DNA of 37,336 nt, from NCBI GenBank assembly GCA_013044295.1, contig JABEUU010000067.1:1-37336 (forward strand), in the 5' to 3' direction. This stretch comes from Candidatus Dormiibacterota bacterium. Lineage in GTDB: Bacteria; Chloroflexota; Dormibacteria; Aeolococcales; Bog-877. A model generated the notes under the pieces. It was not told where the DNA came from. It saw nothing but the letters and a program-made list of their open reading frames with translations, and made no database searches. The translations under genes and the position numbers were made by a program. This document shows, piece after piece, positions 19,891 through 36,560 of this stretch; position 1 is the first letter of the stretch, and each line of letters opens with the position of its first letter.

Positions 19891-20325
19891 TCAGCCCTTC
19901 GCCGGCTTATCGCGCTTGGCCCCGTACTTGCTGCGGCCCTGCTTGCGCGCCTTGGTGCCGGCCGTGTCCAGCGCCCCGCGGATGACGTGGTAGCGAACTC
20001 CGGGAAGGTCCTTGACCCGGCCGCCCCGCACCAGCACCACTGAGTGCTCCTGGAGGTTATGTCCAATCCCGGGGATGTAGGCGGTGACCTCGATCTTGCT
20101 GGTAAGGCGCACCCTGGCCACCTTCCGAAGCGCCGAGTTGGGCTTCTTGGGAGTGGTCGTGAACACCCGCACGCATACTCCCCGCCGCTGAGGCGAACTC
20201 TTGAGAGCGGGCGACTTGGTCTTCTTGATCACCGGGCTGCGACCCTTGCGGACCAGCTGCTGGATGGTAGGCAAACTGAACTTGTCCTTGGAGAACGCTG
20301 GCCGTTCCGGGGCGACGGCCATCAT
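19891..20325 (-). CDS. rpsL: 30S ribosomal protein S12
   Basis: S12 is the decoding-centre protein of the small subunit. The core [39 protein letters not shown] and [19 protein letters not shown] is intact, with Lys at the positions usually mutated in streptomycin resistance, so the sequence looks drug-sensitive. Two starts are credible. The ATG at 20325 lies about 28 nt after the predicted transcription start, has GGAGG 13 nt upstream, and gives 144 residues. A TTG at 20274, with AAGGA 9 nt upstream, gives exactly the canonical (M)PTIQQL N-terminus and 127 residues. The ATG at 20361 lies inside the -10 box and is excluded. Confidence 0.96.
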
Positions 20326-20359
20326 GGACGCAAGCGCCCCTCCGGAGGCGCGGTGGTTC

Positions 20360-20388
20360 ATTCTACAGTCAGCCCAGGACCCTGTCAA
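20360..20388 (-). promoter_or_regulatory. sigma-70-type promoter of the str operon
   Basis: On the minus strand a perfect TTGACA (20388-20383) is separated by 17 nt from TAGAAT (20365-20360), the best consensus match in the window. Transcription would begin near 20353 and leave a short leader with GGAGG before rpsL. This probably drives rpsL-rpsG-fusA-tuf and, by read-through, the S10 and spc groups. I see no gene or other clear element between this promoter and the anti-sigma stop at 20632. Confidence 0.85.
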
Positions 20389-20631: not shown

Positions 20632-20862
20632 CTATGGCCCTGCCGGCGCTCGGTCCCCGTCGATCCCTTCAGATCCTCCCGGGCCTAGCTCGCGCTGCCG
20701 CCTGAAGTGGTTGTCGATTGCGACCAGCGCGAGGTACAGGTTGGGACAGGTGGCACATCCGGCCACATGGGCCTCCACCAACGCCACCTGGTCCTCGCCC
20801 AGGTCTCCGTCCAGGAGGTCAGAAGCCAGGTCCCGCGCCTCGGCGCAGCTCAGGGTCCCCAC
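20632..20862 (-). CDS. small zinc-finger anti-sigma factor
   Basis: From the GTG at 20862 the product is 76 residues. The motif C6, then H32-x3-C36-x2-C39 (AHVAGCATC), is the zinc-anti-sigma (ZAS/zf-HC2) signature. It is followed by one helix (NLYLALVAIDNHFRRQ) and a short acidic, Gly-rich tail. There is no membrane segment, so it resembles soluble ZAS proteins such as RsrA rather than membrane-anchored ones. GGAGGGA precedes the GTG, and the gene overlaps the sigma gene by 13 nt, a strong sign of a sigma/anti-sigma pair. A longer in-frame start at 20973 would lie deep in the sigma gene. The inducing signal is not known; redox sensing through the Zn-Cys site is an inference. Confidence 0.8.
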   Translation of the reverse strand: MGTLSCAEARDLASDLLDGDLGEDQVALVEAHVAGCATCPNLYLALVAIDNHFRRQRELGPGGSEGIDGDRAPAGP

Positions 20863-21386
20863 TCGGCTCCCTCCGCCAGGGCAGTCACCAGGGCCTGGCG
20901 CCCCCGGCGCAGATGAGACTTCACCGTCGCCAGTGGCAGACCCGCCAGCTCGGCGATCTCCCGTTCCGTCCATCCCTCGATGTCGTGCAGCACCACGGCT
21001 CGATTCTGCGCCGGCGTGAGCCCGGAGAGGGCGCGTCGCAGCACCCGGGCGTCCTCCAGCGCGACTGCCACCCGCTCCGGGTCCACGGTGTAGGCTGGGT
21101 CCCGCCAGAGGGCCTCCCTCCGCAAGGCGAGATCGCGGTTCTGCGTCGAATTTCGGCGCCGAAGGGTGTCCTGACAGGTGTTGATGCAGATCCGCTGCAC
21201 CCAGGAGCAGGCATCCGCCTCCCCGCGGAACTTCTCCCGCCCTACCAGGGCCTTGATCACGGAGTCCTGCACGGCATCCTCGGCCTCCGCCTGATCGCCC
21301 AGCATCGATGTTGCCAGCCGGACCAGGCGAGCCCGTGCCGGTTCAACGCAGGCCAACAACTCCTCTTCGCTGAGCGGCACCGCCAC
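20850..21386 (-). CDS. ECF-type RNA polymerase sigma factor
   Basis: A 178-residue sigma-70-family protein with only regions 2 and 4. Region 2 (about residues 20-80) contains AEDAVQDSVIKAL and SWVQRICINTCQDTLRRR. Region 4 (about 115-170) contains LTPAQNRAVVLHDIEGWTER and the helix-turn-helix EIAELAGLPLATVKSHLRRG. It would redirect RNA polymerase to a small regulon. The GTG start at 21386 has a weak ribosome site; a GTG two codons later is possible. Its stop overlaps the anti-sigma gene. It lies between rpoC and rpsL, where most bacteria have no gene or an L7Ae-like gene. I cannot assign an ECF subgroup. Confidence 0.9.
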   Translation of the reverse strand: MAVPLSEEELLACVEPARARLVRLATSMLGDQAEAEDAVQDSVIKALVGREKFRGEADACSWVQRICINTCQDTLRRRNSTQNRDLALRREALWRDPAYTVDPERVAVALEDARVLRRALSGLTPAQNRAVVLHDIEGWTEREIAELAGLPLATVKSHLRRGRQALVTALAEGAEWGP

Positions 21387-22637
21387 ATGATCCCGCAGTG
21401 AGAGGCCTCAGCGGATGAGTAGACCGAGCGCGAGCGAACCTGGCCGGCCCAGGGCCGGCAGCTGAGGGCCGCCGTCCGGACCTGGGCTGTGCCACCCCCA
21501 CTGCCATGGGGGTCAGGCGGAACCGGCATCAGTGCCTCCCAGGTGCCCTGACCCCGAGAGGCGCCCGCCACTGGCAGGGCCGCACCCCTGCCGCCATGAC
21601 CGCGCCCACCAGCTGGGCCACCAACCGTGCGCCTCCCATCGGGTCGCGTGCCGAGTTCGCCCGCCGCCAGGATGGCTTCCGGTAAGTGGAAACTTTGACC
21701 ACAATGAAGCTCCGCGCCAGGGGTCTGCCGTATTCCCTAAGCGCAGCCAGGGCGCCCACCGTCGAGGGCCCCCTCACCCCTTTCCACAGTCGATCCGTCT
21801 GCAACGCGATCAGATCGTCGTCGATGCCCGTCGGCGCACGGGAGGGGTCAAGGAGGGGACGGTGCCCATCGGCGCCCGGTTCAAGCGGAAGGTCGACCCA
21901 GTCGCGTCCGGAAGTTCCCGGCTCCGTGCTGCGCTGAACCCAACGGCGGGTCGGGACACCGCCCGGTCGGCGCCGCGGAGGCGAGATCTCAAGCGAGGCT
22001 CGACCGGAGCCGCGTTGGCGATCTGCCCGGCGATGGCCGGGCCGGCAACCACTTCTCGCGGGACGACTTGCTTGCCCGTCCCAGCCGCCACGCTCCTCCC
22101 AAGCCCCTCCCTCCGCCTGAACCGGCTTCGCCGCTCTGGTCGGAAAGAAGACTGGTCCTGCGTGGCCGCTGGCGGTCCAAAATTCGCCCGCTGCGAACTG
22201 GGCCCCTGCTGGCCAGCCGTGATCGCCGGCCCCACTGTGGCATGGCCCCCCTGCCTTCAGCCCAATCCCGCCCTCTGCCGGTTGACAAGCGGGGCCTCGA
22301 TCATCTTCCGAACTAGGTGCGCCACCACTCTGGAGTCCAGTTGGCTGCGCCGGAGCGACTCCTCTCCCCCGATATCGAGCTGGGCCGCCGCACCAACGGG
22401 AGGTCGCCCCCGAAGCGCCAATTCAAGGCCAGGCAGTGACCTCCCTCGGGCGCCTGCGTGGTGGCCCAGCAACGAGCTTCCTGCCAGGTTCCACGCCCAG
22501 CCCCAGGGGCATGATCGGGCGCTGCTGAGGCTCGCTAAAGCAAGCGTGAGTGTTGGCTCCCAGGATCCCCATCATCCGGCCGGCAGACACCAAGATTTGC
22601 TTCACCCAGCGCGCCCGACCACACGGGGAGCGGGATC
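21387..22637 (-). other. 1.25-kb region without a confident gene
   Basis: This gap between the rpoC terminator and the sigma gene is by far the largest in the minus-strand cluster. Open frames exist on both strands but none has a recognisable family, and several are mutually overlapping high-GC artefacts. Visible structure includes inverted repeats at 22025-22042 (7-bp stem), 22060-22082 (6-bp stem), 21494-21513 (7-bp stem) and 21443-21459 (7-bp stem). I found no sequence resembling RNase P RNA, tmRNA, SRP RNA or tRNA. The sigma gene promoter should lie here but no clear element was found. Confidence 0.5.
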
Positions 22638-22670
22638 CAGGTGGCGCCCGCCCGAGGCGGACGCCACCTG
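22638..22670 (-). terminator. hairpin terminator after rpoC
   Basis: Starting 4 nt after the rpoC stop, the minus strand forms a near-perfect stem of about 15 bp. CAGGTGGCG pairs with CGCCACCTG, then a G-T wobble, then CCGCC pairs with GGCGG around a TCG loop. No U-tract follows, as is common for terminators in GC-rich genomes. It marks the end of the rplJL-rpoBC unit. Confidence 0.75.
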
Positions 22671-22674
22671 CTGC

Positions 22675-27036
<4,362 letters not shown>

Positions 27037-34297: not shown

Positions 34298-34370
34298 CAG
34301 GGGCGGCACGGCTCGAACGCGCGACCTGCGGTTTTGGAGACCGCTGCTCTACCAGCTGAGCTACGCCCCT
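34298..34370 (-). tRNA. trnW: tRNA-Trp (anticodon CCA)
   Basis: The minus strand folds into a full cloverleaf. The acceptor stem pairs AGGGGCG with CGCCCCT, and the D arm is GCTC/GAGC. The anticodon stem is GCGGT/ACCGC around the loop CTCCAAA (anticodon CCA), and the T arm has loop TTCGAGC. The discriminator base is G, as expected for tRNA-Trp. The 3' CCA is not encoded. A tRNA-Trp just upstream of secE is a classic bacterial arrangement. It is probably co-transcribed with rpmG and secE and released by RNase processing. Confidence 0.97.
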
Positions 34371-35474: not shown

Positions 35475-36560
35475 ATGAGATTCCATTCCAGTCAGGGGCA
35501 ACGCGGGCAGGTGGCGGTGCTGTTCGCGCTGGCGGCTGTGGCCCTGGTGGCTATCGTCGGTCTGGCCTTGGACGCCGGACAGGCATTCGTGAGTCAGCGA
35601 GCTCTCCAGGGCGGCTCAGACACAGCAGCGCAGTCCGGGGCGACAATGTTAGCAGTGGACTACAGCAACTGTGTGGCCACCGCCGGGACTGCCAACCCAG
35701 CAAGCGGCGACGGGACATACAGTCAGACGACCATTGCTGCTGACGTCACGCAGTTAGCGCTATACGCAGCCGCGGCTCAGGGTCGGGCCACATCCCCCCC
35801 GGGGGTTTCCTTCGTCAACTACACCGGGGGCGGGGTTGAGATCAACTCATCTCCGACGCCATTTTGCACGGTTGGTTCGTGGACAGGGCCGTCAGGCATC
35901 GAAGTCAGCACTAGCGACACGCATCCTACAAGTATGCTTGGAGTCGTTGGGATCAACTCAGCGACCGAAACGGCGCACGCAATAGCGCTGATCGGGACCC
36001 CGACCAGTACCACTGACGGGGCTCCTTTCGGCGTGTGGTACCAGTCGTGCCCTTCAACTGACCTCAAGGCCGGGGAGGCCGTCACTCTTTTGAGCCCAAC
36101 GTGGGACTCAACTACATGCGGCAACGTGGACACTCGAAACTCTTTCAAAGGTTATTTCAAGCTGCCTGGACCTATAACGTTGGGTAGCTCAGGGTGTATC
36201 CAAACCGGGACCGGATCGGGCGGAGCAATCGGCACGGATCCGAACCCGCCAGCATCCCCCAACTCTGTTTATGTGCCAATGATCACCAAAGTCTACTCAT
36301 TTGGGGACACCATTCCCGAGAACGGTCTTGGCTCCAACTGCCCATCGATTTCGGTGAAAGGTACATTCGACTTGCTGTACTCGGGGTTCGCTTATGTGAA
36401 GGTCAACCCGACTAGTTCAAGCTCGACAATCACCGGAGTGGTTCAGGGAGTTGCTTCGTTCACGACCGGTCTTCAAGTGTGCGCGGTACGCGACACGAGT
36501 TGCTCTTCGGGATCGTCTTCTGCGAGTTCCGAGCCCGCCGTTCCCTACATCTGGCAGTGA
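35475..36560 (+). CDS. Tad/TadG-like pilus-assembly protein
   Basis: The first 55 residues match the N-terminal Tad domain of TadG-like proteins: RGQVAVLFALAAVALVAIVG forms a membrane helix (about residues 10-34), followed by DAGQAFVSQRALQGGSDTAA and a small hydrophobic run. The remaining 300 residues of the 361-residue protein are Ser/Thr/Gly-rich with scattered cysteines and probably lie outside the membrane. The ATG at 35475 has a strong site, AGAGGTGATCC, just upstream. Base composition is visibly less GC-rich than in the ribosomal genes. Tad proteins act in Flp-type pilus assembly, adhesion or related secretion; the exact role here is inferred. It precedes two TadE-like genes. Confidence 0.8.
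   Translation: MRFHSSQGQRGQVAVLFALAAVALVAIVGLALDAGQAFVSQRALQGGSDTAAQSGATMLAVDYSNCVATAGTANPASGDGTYSQTTIAADVTQLALYAAAAQGRATSPPGVSFVNYTGGGVEINSSPTPFCTVGSWTGPSGIEVSTSDTHPTSMLGVVGINSATETAHAIALIGTPTSTTDGAPFGVWYQSCPSTDLKAGEAVTLLSPTWDSTTCGNVDTRNSFKGYFKLPGPITLGSSGCIQTGTGSGGAIGTDPNPPASPNSVYVPMITKVYSFGDTIPENGLGSNCPSISVKGTFDLLYSGFAYVKVNPTSSSSTITGVVQGVASFTTGLQVCAVRDTSCSSGSSSASSEPAVPYIWQ

Follow-up and report, generated by a model that had tools for sequence, protein, structure and literature searches.

An ECF sigma factor gene and the gene of a soluble zinc anti-sigma factor (ZAS) lie between rpoC and rpsL in the window, the whole analyzed stretch of 37,336 nucleotides, which is the complete contig C6 of a draft genome of Candidatus Dormiibacterota (2.3 Mb, 226 contigs, 91% complete). 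RpoB of this genome is 64% identical to that of a Ktedonobacter-labeled genome over nearly its full length and 63% identical to that of a Dehalococcoidia chromosome over most of its length; matches in Actinobacteria and other phyla were covered in a more fragmentary way, which points to Chloroflexota. The conserved zinc motif of the anti-sigma factor and a predicted promoter shared with relatives point to a cytoplasmic thiol- or oxidation-responsive switch with a very small regulon, whose target would have been split off to another contig (C11) in this species; we put the probability of this reading at roughly 0.7. On balance, if by a small measure, we also favor the broader view that the pair belongs to a Chloroflexota ECF subgroup forming a three-gene stress circuit with about one promoter per genome, which in the window lineage would be split and non-autoregulated, with a single target in trans.

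The sigma factor and its putative zinc anti-sigma factor

The sigma gene product has the ECF (group IV) build with regions 2 and 4 only. It matched the Pfam domains Sigma70_r4_2 (1.4e-15) and Sigma70_r2 (5e-13), both above the curated cut-offs, and the NCBIfam model TIGR02937 for sigma70-ECF with 83 bits (cut-off 42.9), and is a bona fide ECF sigma factor; among the 25 best NCBIfam matches listed, it reached no equivalog cut-off. The ZAS gene product matched zf-HC2 (5e-9, above the curated cut-off) and combines an Hx3Cx2C motif with small size and linkage to a sigma gene. Codon-position GC values were gene-like for both reading frames (0.75/0.50/0.83 for sigma and 0.78/0.49/0.79 for ZAS) and not gene-like for most other open reading frames in the interval between rpoC and the sigma gene. 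The coordinates of both genes given in an earlier note on this DNA (Table 1), the 13-nt overlap of their reading frames, the 76 residues of the ZAS, its C6/H32/C36/C39 motif, and the lack of a membrane segment (maximum 19-residue mean hydropathy of 1.45) were all confirmed.

Table 1. Positions of the features discussed (window numbering unless contig C11 is named).
Feature	Position	Strand	Remarks
rpsL (S12)	19891-20271	minus	conserved downstream neighbor of the pair in the family
str leader 5' of rpsL	20272-20359	minus	9 genomes aligned, mean column identity 89%, 1- and 2-nt indels
str promoter TTGACA-N17-TAGAAT	20360-20388	minus	housekeeping type; 11/12 consensus positions; shuffles average 0.0
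Soluble zinc anti-sigma (ZAS) gene	20632-20862	minus	76 aa; GTG start; CHCC motif C6-H32-C36-C39
ECF sigma gene	20850-21386	minus	178 aa; GTG start; third codon (GTG) is an alternative start
rpoC-sigma spacer, 1.29 kb	21387-22674	minus	apparently non-coding
GC-rich hairpin directly after rpoC	22638-22670	minus	fold z = -3.5; possible terminator; no T run
rpoC	22675-27036	minus	upstream neighbor of the pair in the window only
tRNA gene	34298-34370	minus	sole Rfam match in the window
Motif TGCATCC-N16-CGTC	C11, 36499-36525	minus	exact copy
YgaP-like membrane gene	C11, about 36248-36460		minus-strand motif upstream; Pfam 1.2e-7

The classification of the ZAS as a soluble zinc anti-sigma factor of the RsrA type, also made in the earlier note, stood up: in all 15 ZAS proteins the ligands and their spacing are invariant (Cys-x25-His-x3-Cys-x2-Cys, 26/4/3), the spacing is that of RsrA, and there is no further cysteine. 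The zinc ligands of RsrA are Cys11, His37, Cys41, and Cys44, and its N-terminal cysteine is needed for sigma release upon oxidation (PMC4960319); the ZAS keeps an equivalent of this release cysteine. SigR-RsrA from Streptomyces and SigH-RshA from mycobacteria and corynebacteria likewise consist of an ECF sigma gene followed by the gene of a soluble CHCC anti-sigma factor. The NCBIfam RsrA model aligned to residues 5-43 of the window ZAS; since the score with the RsrA equivalog TIGR03988 was 25 bits and the cut-off is 62.5, the protein was not filed as RsrA, although an RsrA-like mode of working is still compatible with this result. It is also shorter than RsrA, which has 105 residues and seven cysteines, whereas the three cysteines of the ZAS are all ligands. 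The predicted ZAS structure had medium confidence. None of its fold matches was significant, although several of those listed are anti-sigma domains (RsiW, ChrR, RskA, and RslA); a PDB profile search with the ZAS gave no significant match. SigE-ChrR and SigW-RsiW share the zinc anti-sigma fold, but ChrR and RsiW are HHCC types, in contrast to the CHCC type of the window ZAS. RsiW is membrane-bound, and ChrR has an additional C-terminal domain.

CHCC zinc motifs may be structural, as the zinc motif of RsiW can be, and the signal could accordingly be something other than thiol oxidation, such as the zinc level, proteolysis, or the state of the membrane sensed via the YgaP-like protein described below. 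The membrane nature of this constant partner and the intermixing of zinc and non-zinc types in the anti-sigma tree (PMC7406223) speak for a structural zinc site; we nevertheless regard it as unlikely, given a motif that is CHCC and not HHCC, a releasing cysteine that is invariant in the 15 proteins, and the enrichment of zinc motifs among soluble anti-sigma domains, which is consistent with redox sensing (PMC7406223). An RsrA-like thiol switch is proposed because the CHCC motif with RsrA spacing is invariant and because redox and iron-stress genes neighbor the module in some relatives.

Gene order around the pair and its flanking elements

Close orthologs of the sigma factor (59-65% identity, clade support 96/93) were found in 10 of the 110 genomes of the class, namely in eight genomes of one family (the window genome, its congener G003, and six species of genus g5) and in two of another (G057 and G107). 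Sigma matches in named genomes were distant (≤39% identity over most of the sigma factor), and the module described below is absent there. In all eight genomes of the family with the sigma gene the pair lies directly 5' of rpsL, and the order sigma-ZAS-rpsL-rpsG-fusA-tuf recurs in the seven besides the window; in G057 the pair is located away from rpsL. Neither rpoB nor rpoC was found in the examined 8-11 kb upstream of the pair in these seven other genomes. Judging from translations, apparent genes for an aldehyde dehydrogenase, an aminotransferase, and a PucR-type regulator are among the upstream genes in the genomes for which open reading frames were listed (G007, G012, G013, and G003). Of the order rpoC-sigma-ZAS-rpsL sought in relatives, the rpsL side was thus recovered in eight family genomes and the rpoC side in the window alone: judged by gene order, rpsL adjacency is a family trait and rpoC adjacency a peculiarity of the window species.

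The pair is missing from this locus in two of three congeners, G001 and G002, a finding that the earlier note had named as contradicting its proposal. G001 keeps rpoC and rpsL 1.5 kb apart and lacks the sigma gene, and the pair is absent upstream of rpsL in G002 and in the family member G014; most genomes are drafts, and these three absences may partly reflect incompleteness. The pair is apparently dispensable within the genus. In the tree, the sigma factors of the window and G003 cluster with those of the G057/G107 family, with support of only 88/82 and long branches; the window copy may have been inherited vertically or acquired by horizontal transfer.

The spacer between rpoC and the sigma gene gave no Pfam match, contains no clearly gene-like open reading frame, and no promoter was recognized in these 1.29 kb. 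As for the rpoC terminator placed here by the earlier note, a strong GC hairpin (z = -3.5) does follow the gene; it has no T run, and the terminator scan was silent because this run is absent. The str promoter claimed downstream of the pair was borne out: an alignment of the rpsL upstream regions of 12 family genomes revealed a common TTTGACA-N17-TAGAAT (TAGACT in G008) with a leader after it, and the promoter is kept in 11 of the 12 whether or not the pair is present. By this conservation, the str promoter is real and independent of the sigma-ZAS pair. The leader, which spans the roughly 90 nt from this promoter to the rpsL start codon TTG, contains the inverted repeat GCGCCTCCGGAGGGGCGC. It resembles an RNA leader and perhaps serves ribosomal-protein feedback; in the Rfam scan of the window, which returned the tRNA only, there was no match at this leader.

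The earlier note suggested that the position of the pair could link sigma expression to the supply of RNA polymerase and ribosomes. Such coupling would work by read-through, with rpoBC transcripts extending into the sigma gene or those of the sigma operon into rpsL-rpsG-fusA-tuf. The genes are co-directional, the pair directly precedes rpsL in eight family genomes, and read-through into the sigma gene is possible because no promoter was recognized in the spacer and the hairpin lacks a T run. We consider such coupling improbable, as only the window has the pair next to rpoC, rpsL possesses a promoter of its own that is conserved with or without the pair, and G001, G002, and G014 manage without the pair at the locus. 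In addition, the motif associated with this sigma subfamily sits before sigma or membrane-protein genes and not before rpsL, and nothing similar to it was found upstream of the window rpsL. The link to supply is therefore unsupported, and the position near rpoC and rpsL is best described as local positional history of the lineage.

A module with a YgaP-like membrane protein and a common putative promoter motif

In four families of the phylum, the sigma gene and the gene of the CHCC anti-sigma factor form a module with a gene for a YgaP-like membrane protein of ~70 residues (PF11127), and the motif TGCATCC-N16-CGTC(TAA) lies 5' of the first gene. The membrane protein corresponds to the transmembrane domain of E. 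coli YgaP (PF11127, formerly DUF2892) as a stand-alone member without the rhodanese domain, and as constant partner it distinguishes the module from SigR-RsrA and SigH-RshA. In the g5 genomes, G057, and G107, its gene is located immediately 5' of the sigma gene. The motif was spotted by eye in alignments of the upstream regions: that of G057 is poorly alignable with the others yet has TGCATCC-N16-CGTCTAA in common with them. Among seven genomes with the motif before the YgaP-like gene (G007, G010, G012, G013, G015, G017, and G057), it was perfect in five and had one mismatch in two. In a distant family, G303 and G366 carry a sigma factor with about 43% identity; here the genes run sigma-ZAS-YgaP, and the motif before sigma is perfect. 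In a fourth family with the order YgaP-sigma-ZAS, TGTATCC-N16-CGTC was present upstream in three genomes (L219, L224, and L228) and a degenerate copy in L218; no clear copy was found upstream of the module in G107.

With two short elements, fixed spacing, and CGTC at the -10 position, the putative motif is of the ECF promoter type in shape. The promoter that an ECF sigma factor recognizes is a distinct one and in most cases belongs to its own operon. A generic ECF promoter pattern (GGAA...CGT) gave nothing upstream of the operons of relatives. The SigR and SigH promoters, which are of the GGAAT/GTT type, differ from TGCATCC-N16-CGTC. The published -35 element CCATCC of SigK-RskA (ECF19, M. tuberculosis) resembles TGCATCC; RskA is membrane-bound and is not known to have a zinc motif, and the SigK -10 element differs from that of the module. 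The match of the window sigma factor to the NCBIfam SigK model was weak (56.5, cut-off 226).

Exact copies of TGCATCC-N16-CGTC numbered 1-6 sites per genome in those 11 of 12 genomes that have any. A wider regulon was considered and rejected, the non-module sites common to several genomes looking like conserved coding sequence. The longer pattern TGCATCCTTTT-N12-CGTC gave 12 matches in 400 genomes of the phylum versus one for the reversed control; seven of the 12 were unrelated, with no sigma, ZAS, or YgaP match nearby. This longer pattern is also conserved at about position 1501 of L282, L283, and L284, from three genomes of one genus in family f15. The gene that follows it there has zinc-ribbon-like motifs, looks like a PP2C phosphatase, and is seemingly unrelated to the sigma module.

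Genes for a Dps-like ferritin and a Fur-family protein lie beside the module in G007 and G010, and genes for thioredoxin and a DUF302 protein in G057. The full order in G057 (L119, 9999-13463) is thioredoxin, DUF302, YgaP-like, sigma, ZAS, methyltransferase, and PIG-L deacetylase. The G057 cluster suggests a thiol or sulfur theme. The literature search retrieved no paper tying DUF2892 or YgaP to an ECF sigma factor, and none naming the ECF subgroup of the module; the main ECF classification paper was outside this search, and the subgroup may already be numbered in the current classification.

At the window sigma locus both the YgaP-like gene and TGCATCC-N16-CGTC were sought in the rpoC-sigma spacer and are absent, whereas most relatives have both there. 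In the whole 2.3-Mb genome the exact motif occurs once, on C11, where an intact gene for a YgaP-like protein starts with ATG 65 nt further downstream; the chance of a copy at such a position is about 1e-4 (estimated with a stretch of 150 nt for each of two such genes and counting both strands). The same split was observed in G003, with a HIT gene upstream of the membrane gene in both genomes, and is therefore older than the divergence of the two species. In G003 (contigs C244 and C177, loci L126 and L238), an in-frame TAG interrupts the sigma ortholog and also the motif-bearing YgaP-like gene, and the ZAS frame looks disrupted; the TAG codons could mean that a single functional unit has decayed as a whole, or they could stem from errors in the assembly. 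That the window pair is likewise a decaying relic of the split would fit the loss of motif and membrane gene from its locus, the TAG codons in G003, and the absence of the pair in G001 and G002, but is doubtful in view of intact reading frames for sigma, ZAS, and the C11 membrane protein, retention of every zinc ligand and of most positions conserved in the sigma factor, and a conserved target promoter.

Proposed function and implications

For the thiol switch that we favor, the following sequence of events is suggested by analogy to RsrA. The ZAS would hold the sigma factor inactive as long as C6, H32, C36, and C39 bind zinc; upon oxidation, C6 would pair with C36 or C39, zinc would be expelled, and the sigma factor set free. 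The free sigma factor would then guide the polymerase to promoters with TGCATCC-N16-CGTC. In relatives, the motif upstream of the sigma/ZAS/YgaP-like operon itself would result in autoregulation. In the window species, the sigma factor would act in trans on the YgaP-like gene of C11, the sole exact promoter copy, and sigma and ZAS, lacking a motif of their own, probably depend on basal transcription, via read-through or an unrecognized promoter. The YgaP-like membrane protein may have a role in thiol or sulfur stress.

Few ECF sigma factors of the phylum have been studied. Of the ECF sigma factors in the phylum, 72% are linked to such anti-sigma domains (PMC7406223). Here, sequence analysis supplies a so far uncharacterized sigma/anti-sigma family with a predicted promoter, a single predicted target gene, and a likely trigger. 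The case also illustrates that a striking gene position beside core genes can reflect local history. The split can serve as a natural experiment on the consequences of separating an otherwise autoregulated sigma factor from its promoter, and the predicted target would provide a first regulatory clue for stand-alone YgaP-like (DUF2892) membrane proteins.
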